A stretch of 34,678 nucleotides of DNA, from positions 1 to 34,678 of the forward strand of contig JAHOYT010000002.1 of NCBI GenBank assembly GCA_019038645.1, written 5' to 3'. The notes under the pieces are model-generated. The model saw only the letters and a program-made list of their open reading frames with translations, searched no databases and was not told the origin of the DNA. Positions within the stretch are counted from its first letter, which is position 1. Each line of letters starts with the position of its first letter. The stretch is from Bacteroidales bacterium (lineage in GTDB: Bacteria; Bacteroidota; Bacteroidia; Bacteroidales; UBA12077). Shown here piece after piece: positions 27,527-32,419 of the stretch. The translations under genes and the position numbers were made by a program.

Positions 27527-27551
27527 TAATAATCTTACTATATATTTAAAG

Positions 27552-27583
27552 GAGTGGTTAATTTATTTAACCACTCTTTTTTT
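27552..27583 (+). terminator. rho-independent terminator after TlpA-like gene
   Basis: A perfect 10-bp stem (27552-27561 with 27567-27576, GAGTGGTTAA and complement) with a TTTAT loop is followed by seven T residues. Confidence 0.9.
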
Positions 27584-27597
27584 ATGAAATAAATTTT

Positions 27598-27627
27598 ACA
27601 ATTCATTACAATATAATTACAGTTCAT
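27598..27627 (+). promoter_or_regulatory. candidate LytTR-type binding site (two 9-bp direct repeats)
   Basis: ACAATTCAT (27598-27606) and ACAGTTCAT (27619-27627) are direct repeats separated by exactly 12 bp, that is 21 bp start to start or two helical turns. LytTR regulators such as AgrA bind paired 9-bp repeats with this spacing and consensus WMMGTTNRK; the second repeat fits it fully, the first differs only at the G. The pair lies 84 bp before the solenoid gene, downstream of the preceding terminator, a suitable place for an activator. Confidence 0.55.
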
Positions 27628-27710
27628 TTCATTTAGTTTTTTTTAAGGTTTGTTTATTCTGATAATTGTATCATGAAAATAAACTGAAATATTAATTAAA
27701 ATAAATACTT

Positions 27711-29441
27711 ATGAAATCACGTGTAATATTATTAATGAGTTTTATCTTTTTAGCATCGTTTTATGTTGAAGCAAAAGAAGCAACACGAGCCAGAAAAGAT
27801 GATTGGGATAACAGAGAACATTTTTATAAATCAAAAGATTCATTTTCGGCATTCGAAATAGAATATAAAGGTAAAATTACAGTTACTGCTAATGATAAAG
27901 ATGTTAAAAGTATTAGTCCCGATGGATATCTAAAAATTACTAAATCTTCGTTTGGGAACAGTAGAACTGTTGAAATTACAAGCGATAGCAAAGGAAATTT
28001 ATCTAAAAAATATTTAGATGGTAGAAAAGAAGTTGCTTTTAGTCCGGAAGGACAAGAATGGTTAGAAGATATTTTAATCGATGTAATAAGAAAAACCGGA
28101 ATTGGTGGTAGAGATCGGATAATGAGAATTTATAATAAGGGAGGTGTTAAAGCAATCCTGGATGAAATTGAAGATTTCGACAGAACAAGCGGGTATTCTT
28201 ATTATAAGTCAACTAGTCATGCCTTATTTTTGTTCGAATCAATTGAGTATAGTGGGTTTAATGTAAAATACTTATACTACAAAACTTTAGTTGATGAAAT
28301 CAAATTAAGCAAAGAGGAATTAGTTAAAGTAATCAAAGCAACTGAAGATATTTCTTCAAATAGTACAAAGGGTACATTGCTAAGAGAAATCCTGAATAAA
28401 TATGAATTAGATTCTTACTCAATGGAGAAATTTCTTGATGCAACGGAATCATTAAGTTATAATACTGAACGTGGAAATGTATTGAGAGCATTCCAAAATA
28501 AATATGAAATTACAAGGGAAATTGCAGGTGAGTATTTTGATGTAATTGATGGAATGTCAATAAATTCTGAAAAAGGAAATGTAATTAAACCTTTGCTCGA
28601 AACTCAAAAATTAGATAAATCTGTATTGTCAGATCTGATTAATACGGTTGACGATTTTAGCTCAAATAGCGAAAGATCAGCTATTTACAGGTTGTTGATT
28701 CCTCATGTTGCTGGTGATGAAGATTTGACCAATCAGCTTATCAATGCGGCAAATCATTTAAGCAGTAGCTACAGATATTTTAGAGAAGAGATACTTGAGT
28801 TTATGGCAAAGGGGAAGATTGTAACAGACAACTCATTAAGTAAATCTGCTGTGTTAAATCTGCTTGACATTGCAATCACTTACGATGCAAATACACGCAA
28901 ATCAACAAATCTTAGAAAATTACATGGGTCTATGACAAATGATAAAGAGGTGGTTGAAGCGTACTTTGATGTAATTGAAAGCATGGATATTGAAAGGATA
29001 CAGTATAATTTATTACTTGATTTAATAAGAGTACATAAACTTGATGATTACGGATTAAAATTATTATTCGAAGCAGTTGAGGATATCGCAGAAGATGATG
29101 AGAAACATGGAGCTTCAGCAATATTACGTACTATGATTAAAGATTTACCAAGTGATCCTGATGTATTGGAAGCATTTTTTGAAGCTCTGGAAGAAATAGA
29201 TCATAACTCAGGTAAAGAAGAAATTATAAGAATGTTTTGTGAAAAAGGAAATCTTGATAAAAGAACAATAGTTTATTTATTGAAAACTGTTGAAGATATT
29301 GATGTTGATATTGAAAAAGCCACTTCATTAATGAAATTAAAAAAGGTTATGCCTAAAGGTGACGATGAGTTAACCTACATATTCAATAGTGTTGCTGATG
29401 AAATTAAATCAGATTATGAATACGAACGTGCAATGAAATAA
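27711..29441 (+). CDS. secreted alpha-solenoid protein with ~11 copies of a 34-residue repeat
   Basis: The 576 residues start with a signal peptide (MKSRVILLMSFIFLASFYVEA). A small beta-rich domain follows (about 40-112, IEYKGKITVTANDKDVKSIS), then a helical joint (115-198, WLEDILIDVIRKTGIGGRDR). From residue 199 to the end is a tandem repeat: units at 199, 233, 267, 301 and 335 are spaced exactly 34 residues, then slightly irregular units begin near 369, 409 and 444, and again 34-residue units at 481 and 515, with a partial unit at 549. Each unit looks like two helices with an SSNSxKGxxLR-like turn. The architecture recalls repeat proteins associated with envelope stress or M56-type signalling in other bacteria, but I cannot name a family. 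A periplasmic scaffold or sensor role is inference. Confidence 0.85.
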   Translation: MKSRVILLMSFIFLASFYVEAKEATRARKDDWDNREHFYKSKDSFSAFEIEYKGKITVTANDKDVKSISPDGYLKITKSSFGNSRTVEITSDSKGNLSKKYLDGRKEVAFSPEGQEWLEDILIDVIRKTGIGGRDRIMRIYNKGGVKAILDEIEDFDRTSGYSYYKSTSHALFLFESIEYSGFNVKYLYYKTLVDEIKLSKEELVKVIKATEDISSNSTKGTLLREILNKYELDSYSMEKFLDATESLSYNTERGNVLRAFQNKYEITREIAGEYFDVIDGMSINSEKGNVIKPLLETQKLDKSVLSDLINTVDDFSSNSERSAIYRLLIPHVAGDEDLTNQLINAANHLSSSYRYFREEILEFMAKGKIVTDNSLSKSAVLNLLDIAITYDANTRKSTNLRKLHGSMTNDKEVVEAYFDVIESMDIERIQYNLLLDLIRVHKLDDYGLKLLFEAVEDIAEDDEKHGASAILRTMIKDLPSDPDVLEAFFEALEEIDHNSGKEEIIRMFCEKGNLDKRTIVYLLKTVEDIDVDIEKATSLMKLKKVMPKGDDELTYIFNSVADEIKSDYEYERAMK

Positions 29442-29489
29442 AATATAAGGTTTGTAGATTTATAAAACCCGAATAGTTATTTTTTGAAT

Positions 29490-29540
29490 AAGCCTTGAGA
29501 TTTCAATCGAAAATTGATTAATTTAGAAATCTCAAGGCTT
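29490..29540 (+). terminator. 15-bp perfect hairpin between solenoid gene and kinase gene
   Basis: AAGCCTTGAGATTTC (29490-29504) pairs perfectly with 29526-29540 around a 21-nt loop, followed by TTTAGTTTTTA. It should stop transcription from the solenoid gene, but it ends only 13 nt before the kinase ATG, so it may also act as an attenuator or leader structure. Confidence 0.75.
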
Positions 29541-29553
29541 TTAGTTTTTATTT

Positions 29554-30603
29554 ATGCGAATTCGAAAAATCATATCACTTTTTTTCCTGAATGTAGTTTT
29601 AAGCCTAATTCTATATTCATATTTGCATTATAGCCAGTTAGGCGAACTTCCAAAATTTTCTAAAGATTGGTTTTTATTTATTTATTTGATATTGGGTGCA
29701 AATATTATTGGGTTTTCAATGACTTTTTTAAGCTCTTTATTAAATAAGATTCCTGTGTGGCAAAAGAAAATTGGACTGAGATTTATTTTAGGATTAATTA
29801 TTAATTATCTGTTGATACTTGCAATCGTTTATGTGAGTGTTTTACTCTACATAAAGCTTACGCAGCTAAATTACACTATTAGTGATTTGTTGGTTGAATA
29901 TCAGGAAATTGCGGCCAGAGTATATATCTTAATCCTGATTTTAGATATTTTATTGGTGGTTTCCGACTTTTTGATTTATTCGTATAAATATTATTCACAG
30001 GGACAATTGAAAACGGCACGATTAAGTCGGGAGCAAATGGAACTTCAGTTTGAAGCATTGCGCACCCAATTAAGTCCGCATTATTTGTTTAACAGCCTCA
30101 ATACAATATCATCCTTAATTTATAAGGATATAAATCAAACAGAAGAGTATATAAGGAATCTGGCAAGTACATATAAGTATATTCTCGAATCGGATAAAAA
30201 ACAATTGATTTCTTTAAAAAAGGAAATTCAGTTTATTCATGATTATTGTTATTTGCTACAAATTAGATTTGGAAAGGCTTTTCGGGTTTATATTGATATT
30301 GAAAAGTCGTACGAAAAAATGTTTATTCCGCCAATTAGCATTCAGATATTGGTTGAAAATGCAGTTAAACACAATGTTTTCGACGATGAAAATCCACTTG
30401 AAGTGGATATTATTGCTAAAGAAAACTCCGTATATGTTAATAATAAAATACTTAAAAACCCGGTAAGCAGAGAATCGTTTAAAATTGGTTTAGGAAATAT
30501 CCGTAAACGGTACGAAGTTTTTACTGATAAGAAGATAAAAATAACTAAGAATGATTTTTTTAAGGTTGAATTACCTTTATTAAAGCACGATATAAATGGT
30601 TAA
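29554..30603 (+). CDS. LytS/YehU-type sensor histidine kinase
   Basis: The 349 residues have four membrane helices (about 6-24, 39-63, 75-100, 121-144), a short coiled linker, then a His_kinase (PF06580-type) domain. The phospho-acceptor box is LSPHYLFNSLNTIS (His176), the N-box is ILVENAVKHN (265-274) and the G-box is IGLGNIRKRY (311-320), all intact. There is no large extracytoplasmic sensor domain. It heads a tight operon: its end overlaps the next gene by 8 bp and the LytTR regulator follows. It most likely phosphorylates that regulator. The signal is unknown. Confidence 0.92.
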   Translation: MRIRKIISLFFLNVVLSLILYSYLHYSQLGELPKFSKDWFLFIYLILGANIIGFSMTFLSSLLNKIPVWQKKIGLRFILGLIINYLLILAIVYVSVLLYIKLTQLNYTISDLLVEYQEIAARVYILILILDILLVVSDFLIYSYKYYSQGQLKTARLSREQMELQFEALRTQLSPHYLFNSLNTISSLIYKDINQTEEYIRNLASTYKYILESDKKQLISLKKEIQFIHDYCYLLQIRFGKAFRVYIDIEKSYEKMFIPPISIQILVENAVKHNVFDDENPLEVDIIAKENSVYVNNKILKNPVSRESFKIGLGNIRKRYEVFTDKKIKITKNDFFKVELPLLKHDING

Positions 30604-31633
30604 GAATATTATACATAACCCTGTGTTTCGAATTTTTACACCCATATTTTATGGTGTAACTATGTATATTTTAATTCTTTTGATTTTTGATAGTATTCAA
30701 CAGTTATCAGAAAATTTCTTTAGTATCGAAGTGTTTTTATGTGTAATTATTACTTATCTTATTTTTGAATCATTAAGAGTTTTTGCCCTTATAGTGGAAA
30801 AAAAGTGTTCCGTAAATTGTAGTGTTAGTTACCGGATTTTCATTCAGGGAGGAGGGTCCGTAGTAATAGCATTAGCAATCACAACTTTAATCATATCCTT
30901 TTATTTTTCTAAACTGGTTGGATTTAGTTCTTATGGGGCCGAGCTTACGGTATTTGATACAATTTTTGTATTAACCGGCATATTATATAATATGATTTAT
31001 TTTAGTTTCTTCTATTTAAATCGTATTAATGTAACGCAACTTGAGCAGGAAGATATTTTGCGTAAAAATACTGAAATTGAATTAGATACTTATAAAAACA
31101 AAATTAACCCCGATTTTTTATACGATAGTTTAGAGTCTTTAATTAGCTTATCGAAAATAAATCCGGAAGATGCTGATCAGTTTATATTAAAACTATCGGA
31201 CGTTTACAGAAATATTCTTTCAAATAAAAAAAGTGAATTAACTTTGATTAGCAGTGAGCTTAATATTTCAAAAACATTAATAGAGATTTTTAATTATAAA
31301 CTCAACGGGAATCTGCAGTTTAGTATTGATTCTGAAATTGAAAATGGTTCTCATCATATTATTTCAGGAACCATGGTTGTAATTATTGAAGATATTATTA
31401 ACCGGTCAATAATTTCCAATATTGAACCATTAGAAATTAATGGTGAAATTGAGAATAACGTCTTAAAAATTCATCATCCTGTTCAAAATAAGTTAGTTCA
31501 AAATTTTTCTAAAAGAACAGAATTGAAACAATTGAAAACAGCTTACCTGTATTATGGTAAAAAAAGCATTTCTATCGATGATAAAAATAATATTAGAACT
31601 TATAATATTCCTGTTTTTGAAATGGAAAGGTAA
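30596..31633 (+). CDS. histidine-kinase-like protein lacking catalytic residues (pseudokinase)
   Basis: The 345 residues copy the layout of the preceding kinase: four membrane helices (about 12-31, 43-68, 86-106, 118-140), a linker, then a His_kinase-like domain. The H-box reads KINPDFLYDSLESLISL: the histidine is Asp173 and the following Asn is Asp177. The N-box reads IIEDIINRS (263-271) instead of VENAVKHN, and the glycine-rich G-box is gone (TELKQLKTAY, 308-317). The dimerisation helices are still recognisable (FILKLSDVYRNILS). The reading frame is intact and codon use is like the neighbours, so this looks like a maintained non-catalytic partner, probably dimerising with or regulating the active kinase, rather than a decaying gene. 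It lies 6 bp before the response-regulator gene. Confidence 0.85.
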   Translation: MVKNIIHNPVFRIFTPIFYGVTMYILILLIFDSIQQLSENFFSIEVFLCVIITYLIFESLRVFALIVEKKCSVNCSVSYRIFIQGGGSVVIALAITTLIISFYFSKLVGFSSYGAELTVFDTIFVLTGILYNMIYFSFFYLNRINVTQLEQEDILRKNTEIELDTYKNKINPDFLYDSLESLISLSKINPEDADQFILKLSDVYRNILSNKKSELTLISSELNISKTLIEIFNYKLNGNLQFSIDSEIENGSHHIISGTMVVIIEDIINRSIISNIEPLEINGEIENNVLKIHHPVQNKLVQNFSKRTELKQLKTAYLYYGKKSISIDDKNNIRTYNIPVFEMER

Positions 31634-31639
31634 TTTATT

Positions 31640-32419
31640 ATGAGAGTATTAATTCTAGAAGACGAAAAACCAGCTGCTGAAAAGCTTGAATTATTGTTAA
31701 AAAAATACGATCCTCAAATTGATATTTTAGCTCAAATAAGTACTGTAGTAAAAAGTATAGAATATTTACAAAAAAATCAGGATCAGGTAGATTTAATTTT
31801 CCTTGATATTCAGTTAACCGATGGCCTGAGTTTTGATATCTTCAAATCTGTAAAAGTTGAAAAACCAATTATTTTTACTACAGCTTTTAACGAATATGCC
31901 ATCGATGCTTTTAAATTAAATAGTATCGATTATTTATTAAAACCACTAAGTTATGATAGCCTGGTGCATGCAATGGATAAGATCAAAAGTATGCATAAAA
32001 ACCTGCCGGTTGAACAGCCGCAAAGTAATATTTCATTAGATCAGATCGCTAAATTGTTATCAGGAGCTGCCCAAAATTATAAAACAAGATATTTAGTAAA
32101 GATTGGCGAACACATTAAGTCAATTTCAACAGAAGATATTTGCTTTTTTTATGCCGAAGGACGCATTGTTTTTATACTTACAAAAGAAAACAGAAAGTTT
32201 ATTGTTGATAACACATTAGAGGAACTGATTAATCAGCTAAATCCTCAAAAATTCTTTAGAGCAAACCGCTCATTTATTATTAATTTCGATAACATTACCG
32301 ACGTTATAGTTTATTCTACGAGTCGTTTACGGGTCAAGTTTCCGTTTGAATTTGAGAAAGAAATTATAGTAAGCCGCGAAAAAGTTGCAGATTTTAAAGT
32401 ATGGTATGGGGGTGAATAA
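31640..32419 (+). CDS. LytTR family response regulator
   Basis: The 259 residues hold a receiver domain (1-115) and a LytTR DNA-binding domain (about 148-257). Receiver residues are intact: acidic pair Asp8-Glu9 in LEDEKPA, phospho-acceptor Asp56 in FLDIQLTDG, Thr80/81 and Lys101 in YLLKPL. The LytTR domain has IKSISTEDICFFYAEGR and the conserved FFRANRSFIIN (205-215). It is cotranscribed with the kinase and the pseudokinase. A pair of direct repeats suited to LytTR binding lies upstream of the solenoid gene at 27598-27627, making that gene a probable target; this is inference. Confidence 0.94.
   Translation: MRVLILEDEKPAAEKLELLLKKYDPQIDILAQISTVVKSIEYLQKNQDQVDLIFLDIQLTDGLSFDIFKSVKVEKPIIFTTAFNEYAIDAFKLNSIDYLLKPLSYDSLVHAMDKIKSMHKNLPVEQPQSNISLDQIAKLLSGAAQNYKTRYLVKIGEHIKSISTEDICFFYAEGRIVFILTKENRKFIVDNTLEELINQLNPQKFFRANRSFIINFDNITDVIVYSTSRLRVKFPFEFEKEIIVSREKVADFKVWYGGE

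Follow-up and report, generated by a model that had tools for sequence, protein, structure and literature searches.

Repeat Pair and Gene Order

Two short direct repeats precede the gene of a solenoid protein in the window, which is the whole stretch of 34,678 nucleotides analyzed here (G000:C4:1-34678; G000 is the window's own genome, 3.39 Mb). Do they constitute the binding site of a LytTR regulator, and if so, which regulator would bind there and which genes would it control? Below, the solenoid gene is designated SOL, the two kinase genes HK1 and HK2, and the LytTR regulator gene RR; G and L numbers designate genomes and loci, respectively. The order in the window, with all features on the + strand, is a DUF4369/AhpC-TSA gene, a T-tailed hairpin, the repeats, SOL, HK1, HK2, and RR. 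The hairpin (27548-27580) is an inverted repeat closing the DUF4369/AhpC-TSA gene; its sequence differs among orthologues, and the repeats lie 3' of it.

The core of half-site 1, ACAATTCAT, occupies positions 27598-27606, and the core of half-site 2, ACAGTTCAT, occupies positions 27619-27627, starting 21 bp from the first. The exact 12-bp distance between them was recognized in the preliminary description of this DNA and was confirmed. The same description cited the consensus WMMGTTNRK for LytTR targets; ACAGTTCAT agrees with it, and ACAATTCAT has a mismatch at position 4. Behind the repeats are SOL (27711-29441, 576 aa), the putative target; HK1 (29554-30603) and HK2 (30596-31633), both with PF06580; and RR (31640-32419), the putative binder, with a receiver (PF00072) and a LytTR DNA-binding domain (PF04397). 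RR, the third gene after SOL, is indeed the sole LytTR regulator in the window. Genome-wide, 15 LytTR domains were found, one of them in a gene ~2.2 kb past the window end.

The bare repeat pair is weak evidence by itself. The intergenic region with the repeats has 17% G+C, the window contains one match to the motif at ≤3 mismatches where 0.35 would be expected, and at least one such match turned up in 31 of 100 window shuffles. Since shuffled windows match so often, significance had to come from comparison, which was decisive. A genome scan for the paired motif, as had been proposed, revealed the exact pattern ACARTTCATN{12,13}ACARTTCAT once in 3.39 Mb, with 0 in the reversed control; at ≤3 mismatches, there were 49 matches versus 23 in the reversed control. 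Among these 49, the surroundings were read for the three with 1-2 mismatches. C82:5695 was retained; C4:74524 was set aside because it overlaps a gene start, and C28:34863 because it is inside a long ORF.

Conservation in the Genus and in a Second Family

SOL orthologues, 70-80% identical, were found from 6 of the 19 other genomes of the genus, the one from G004 being partial. In all seven genus orthologues with upstream sequence, the window's own included, the repeat pair is kept at 16-18 of 18 core matches, gapless over 80 columns, and the core of half-site 1 is kept in each of them. A SOL homologue from another family (G038, 30% identical) is preceded by CCGTTTCAC-N12-ACGGTTCAT with the same spacings. 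The repeats, whose conservation upstream of orthologues had been singled out as the point to check, are thus present in 7/7 genus orthologues, in G038, and in 11/11 testable loci outside the training data described below, one of which has the site before the gene preceding SOL and not directly before SOL.

SOL, HK1, HK2, and RR stand in this order in G000, G017, G012, G015, G013, and G038, and across two contigs in G004. An RR orthologue is present in 7 of the 20 genus genomes (G000, G008, G017, G012, G015, G013, and G004), with 78-85% identity in the six other than the window's own. The contig of G009 ends just after SOL, and any RR would fall beyond its end. A single-protein search for relatives in genome contigs returned none; relatives were found with an alignment-based search.

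Distant Loci

The SOL-HK1-HK2-RR block also occurs sporadically among other Bacteroidota, preceded by one operator; Roseivirga metagenome records are among its carriers. Nine other SOL homologues were found from a phylum sample of 395 genomes, five of them with HK/RR adjoining; eight others came from a class sample of 395, partly overlapping the phylum set, and 13 others from an order sample of 393. Two cassette-bearing loci, L240 and L241, are labelled Thalassovita and Thalassobius, which are alphaproteobacteria; their cassette is of the Bacteroidota type, and they are possibly mislabelled or mixed bins.

With the consensus taken from the genus, core scores were summed over the upstream regions of 10 distant loci, among them two near-copy pairs; the sum is highest at the spacing of 21 (146 versus 113-137 for the rest of the range 12-33). 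The core score was reached by 0 of 1000 shuffles for L241, L242, L243, and L247, and by 64, 109, and 250 of 1000 for L239, L240, and L245, respectively; on the 9-bp cores alone, these last three single loci are not significant. A matrix was built from 11 distant loci without any genus sequence, the near-copies L243 and L246 (of L242 and L244) having been dropped from it and from the offset test. In the window, its best score is at 27597 (44.8), and the next is 6.6. The training sites had been chosen by the 9-bp core score, so the matrix is circular for them; only this genus-free window test and the loci found later are out of sample.

The later set consists of 12 SOL loci of the order, from which L306 was excluded because only 52 bp of contig precede its ORF. 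The 9-12-9-33-8 architecture was fixed before these loci were found; the 72-bp matrix was built from other loci, yet after the core matches of the later ones were known. Ten of the 11 testable loci have a site directly before SOL, with scores of 15.0-54.5. It ranks first within the 8.6-13-kb locus in nine, where the best score elsewhere is ≤6.2, and second in L300, which has a further site before a SIMPL-domain gene. The eleventh locus, L301, has the site (39.9) one gene farther upstream, before an Rce1-like gene adjoining SOL. In all 10 direct sites, the -7 box at the fixed distance agrees in at least 4 of 6 letters. On the cores alone, the later set is weak evidence, with 165 for spacing 21 and 160 for spacing 16 (12 loci).

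Among the 11 testable later loci, nine show RR. The contig of L301 ends after SOL, and L298 (G844:C95) carries the operator and SOL-HK1-HK2 with no RR within ~3.4 kb past HK2. The site is absent in all four SOL homologues that have no HK/RR neighbours (scores of -13.0 to -26.4), an imperfect control, as their upstream G+C is 0.43-0.66 against 0.22-0.50 in most cassette loci. The operator is accordingly conserved before orthologues that keep the LytTR regulator and is found at 0 of 4 homologues lacking HK and RR.

Extra operator copies near the cassette were observed at L300:9223, L300:3158, L242:4470, and L243:5517. They precede a SIMPL-domain gene, the gene of an unassigned protein of 432 aa, and a SOL-like gene of reduced length, as putative local regulons. 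Weaker look-alikes, within 1.5 kb of paralogous LytTR regulators in G008 and G017, score 16.3 (L153:2954) and 13.9 (L154:801).

Architecture of the Putative Operator and Promoter

The conserved layout is 9 bp, 12 bp, 9 bp, and 33 bp, followed by a Bacteroidota -7 box. According to the available text of PMC4847170, a LytTR site comprises a pair of repeats, direct or inverse, each of 9-11 nt and separated by 11-13 nt, and such sites share no consensus; the 9-12-9-bp pair has this geometry. In the window, the -7-like element GATAATTG (27661-27668), a variant of TAnnTTTG, begins 33 bp past half-site 2; TAnnTTTG is the -7 consensus in the accessible portions of PMC9723704 and PMC7366714. When offsets of 0-49 were compared across the 11 distant loci left after removal of near-copies, 33 was the best, with a mean -7 match of 4.45 of 6; the remaining offsets averaged 2.06 (SD 0.64). 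No TTTG was seen by eye at the usual -33 distance in the window promoter, and a sigma-70 style promoter scan gave 38 sites versus 40.7 expected. The transcription start is predicted at ~27673-27675, which would place the centre of the repeat pair at about -60, upstream of the promoter.

The most informative columns of a 15-site matrix are C at positions 3, 13, 24, and 34 (1.8 each). They are ~10.5 bp apart and thus lie on one helix face; by this periodicity, the 9-bp repeats are the cores of ~14-bp half-sites, corresponding to TACAATTCATTACA (27597-27610) and TACAGTTCATTTCA (27618-27631). In the structure of AgrA, one LytTR domain reportedly touches two adjacent grooves. With an alignment inspected by eye, no clear candidate was recognized for RR residues co-varying with the TTGAT box variant of L244 and L246.

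A Putative Second Target and Relic Sites

A sequence-only model, R1, was built from 14 genus sites. On G000, it gave two strong sites (2.3e-17 and 1.4e-15), the window site and C82:5646-5724, both of which were in its training; the next match was at 0.129, and all other G000 matches had E-values of at least that. Outside the training, R1 recovered the half-permease promoter of G009 (1.8e-13), the relic sites of G011 (5.2e-11) and G002 (1.8e-6), and the site of G038 (8.0e-4). A marginal match was obtained at G008:C8 (0.0024), and one in G040 (2.7e-5) was set aside as chance because it is inside an ORF.

At the C82 site, 33 bp separate the second half-site from TATTTTTG, as at the window operator, and the site scores 37.0 by the matrix without genus sequence. 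Its putative target is a 352-aa protein (G000:C82:4561-5616) that resembles parts of ~800-aa open frames and shows no Pfam family above cut-off; we take it to be an FtsX/MacB-like half-permease. The gene stands alone, and its two neighbours in 3.6 kb are PD40 and PALP (Pfam), neither of them an ATPase. In G009, a full-architecture site was also observed ~170 bp before a phosphoglucomutase/phosphomannomutase gene (L192:4026-4098, G009:C473), which would have a long leader.

The half-permease box is kept at 16-17 of 18 in 7/7 RR-bearing genomes and at 17 in G009. When left out of the matrix, the RR-bearing genomes score 40.8-53.4 for the box part of this site, and the untrained G009 scores 48.0. 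Where RR is missing, the scores are 33.2 (G011, with 16/18 core matches still present and no RR orthologue) and 29.5 (G018), and these permeases (59% identity for G011/G018) are not more diverged than those of G013/G004 (57%). No half-permease box was found in G007 and G016, whose permeases are 45-46% identical.

Relics are seen where the cassette is lost. Behind the DUF4369/AhpC-TSA gene, G011 and G002 have a lipoprotein-like gene and no cassette, and the box is still present there at 18/18 and 17/18, respectively. The promoter part of both relics matches poorly, and indels contribute to this. Within 260 bp behind the DUF4369/AhpC-TSA gene, no box was found in G007, G016, G006, G003, G001, and G014; G010 and G018, where the contig extends only 378 and 164 bp past this gene, were not counted. 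Three genus members without an RR orthologue thus retain relic or weaker sites. The good boxes of G011 possibly reflect a recent loss or the use of the site by another regulator.

Proteins of the Cassette and the Intergenic Stem-Loop

SOL is probably secreted, as judged from its N-terminal hydrophobic helix. A structure model (mean pLDDT 79.4, pTM 0.52) predicts a beta head and an alpha-solenoid after this helix. No family above cut-off was found in Pfam and NCBIfam, and among the best 50 matches listed, the structure search gave generic repeat proteins with TM-scores of 0.08-0.35 of the query. No function of SOL can thus be deduced from the fold.

The two LytS-type membrane kinases differ in their motifs. 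HK1 retains the H-box histidine and the N-box asparagine in 30/30 loci, a count that includes the near-copies L242/L243 and L244/L246, as do the counts for HK2. This PF06580 kinase and the receiver-LytTR regulator RR therefore have the features of a LytS/LytTR two-component system. The kinases are not all intact: the phospho-histidine of HK2 is absent in 30/30 loci and is replaced by D, E, G, S, T, Q, Y, N, K, or F (D in the window), Asn is at the N-box column in 2/30, and the glycine-rich box is lost as judged by eye. By these motif losses, HK2 is a dedicated pseudokinase.

Between SOL and HK1 is a stem-loop (29490-29541) with CCTTGAGATTTC arms; its tail is U-rich, and 12 nt separate the structure from the start of HK1. 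It is present and nearly invariant in the five genus loci read, in contrast to the varying hairpin before SOL, and is not evident in G038. The fold z-score is -5.07 (29430-29560); the stem-loop was missed by a simple terminator scan. The preliminary description proposed that a terminator separates SOL from the regulator operon. The structure itself is present as proposed; the regulator genes may share an attenuated transcription unit with SOL. From its sequence, the stem-loop may be a partial terminator/attenuator or a 3'-end stabiliser, perhaps more than a terminator; it could also terminate transcription fully, which would count against read-through.

Probable Regulation by RR and Its Alternatives

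It is very probable, from the comparison of sequences, that 27597-27668 is the operator-promoter of the four-gene cassette, bound by RR and activating SOL. The proposal that SOL is a direct target of RR gains support from the conservation of the site and its association with the cassette. Confidence is slightly lowered by L298, where no RR was found within ~3.4 kb past HK2, and by the different G+C of the controls. In the proposed mechanism, HK1 would phosphorylate RR, which would then occupy the two ~14-bp half-sites side by side; these are TACARTTCANTACA-like and lie in tandem at a distance of 21 bp. The pair, centred ~60 bp upstream of the predicted start, would recruit RNA polymerase to the -7-box promoter, and operator-bound RR would switch on SOL. 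Read-through past the conserved stem-loop probably also drives HK1-HK2-RR, which would be autoregulation, and one distant gene in this genome, the half-permease gene, would be switched on as well. The pseudokinase HK2 probably tunes or senses for HK1.

RR could act in the opposite direction, either repressing from the site or binding unphosphorylated and being released, so that the signal derepresses SOL. The direction is not readable from sequence, and PMC4227749 mentions that AgrA represses bsaA. The pair is, however, located upstream, with its centre at about -60 and clear of the -7 box and the predicted start, as for an activator, and repression or derepression is considered unlikely.

The site could also be a true LytTR operator used by another LytTR protein, such as the one encoded 2.2 kb past the window end or, elsewhere, a member of a paralogue clade ~40-50% identical to RR. 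The genome has 15 LytTR domains to choose from, boxes persist in G011, which has no RR orthologue, L298 has the site with no RR found nearby, and weak similar sites are found near the paralogues at L153 and L154. Against these points, the site tracks the cassette RR across many families. The 40-50% clade is unrepresented in G000, where the next RR matches are 31-34% identical, and the 15 LytTR loci of G000 score ≤2.8 with ~1.5 kb read on each side. The neighbouring pair past the window end (LytS/LytTR-like, G000:C4:35.7-37.6 kb) is also beside the cassette in G013 and G004 and is absent from the stretches read of G017, G012, and G015. Control by a regulator other than RR is therefore judged quite improbable.

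Conservation alone names no protein, and the block could belong to the promoter itself or be recognized by a non-LytTR factor. It agrees in geometry with the published LytTR sites, however, and the four SOL homologues without HK/RR neighbours are also without the block; RR is the recurring DNA-binding gene noticed among the cassette genes profiled. Such an origin of the block has a very low probability. The repeats could be fortuitous in an intergenic region of 17% G+C, as the shuffled windows with 3-mismatch matches might suggest; this is refuted by the conservation and the out-of-sample recovery, and its probability is negligible.

Comparison with Known Systems

On sequence criteria, the operator appears to be of a known kind, and the combination in the cassette appears to be a new variant; no description of this operator or cassette was found in the literature searched (titles and abstract openings, few subscription journals). 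With RR binding and activating at this site, the layout of operator and promoter would be precisely defined for a LytTR regulator of Bacteroidota, and a regulon can be predicted from it straight from sequence. In the cassette, an active sensor kinase also stands next to a dedicated pseudokinase, and the module would be a natural test of the role of pseudokinases in two-component signalling.

The YpdB repeat is GGCATTTCAT in the available text of PMC4847170, and it has CAnTTCAT in common with the window site. YpdA/YpdB and BtsS/BtsR of E. coli resemble the cassette in the LytS-type kinase, the LytTR regulator, and the tandem direct repeats. In contrast to these systems, the cassette contains a second, inactive kinase and a solenoid target in the same block, with a Bacteroidota-type promoter at a fixed 33 bp from the operator to the -7 box.

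In the AgrA system, the kinase AgrC, with its peptide signal, is of a different type from the cassette kinases, the target genes are other ones, and the repeat sequence differs from the window repeats. The likeness is in the arrangement: the portion of PMC4227749 consulted places the two direct repeats at P2/P3 of Staphylococcus aureus, recognized by a LytTR domain, with a centre at about -60.

A tentative and rather doubtful reading is that SOL might serve, in the periplasm, as the sensing component of a receptor with three parts, in which an active LytS kinase and a pseudokinase form an obligatory heteromer that reads SOL. The level or occupancy of SOL would then feed back via the operator, and the SOL family would be separately wired to M56/BlaR1-type signalling elsewhere. 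At the M56/BlaR1-type loci L249 and L251, a SOL-family protein is likewise beside a membrane transducer (Peptidase_M56, Pfam), with presumably a BlaI-like repressor adjoining; they differ from the cassette in having no HK/RR match in the 13-14 kb read and no operator. L249 and L251 belong to distant members of the phylum, and two of the four SOL controls lie beside M56 peptidases.
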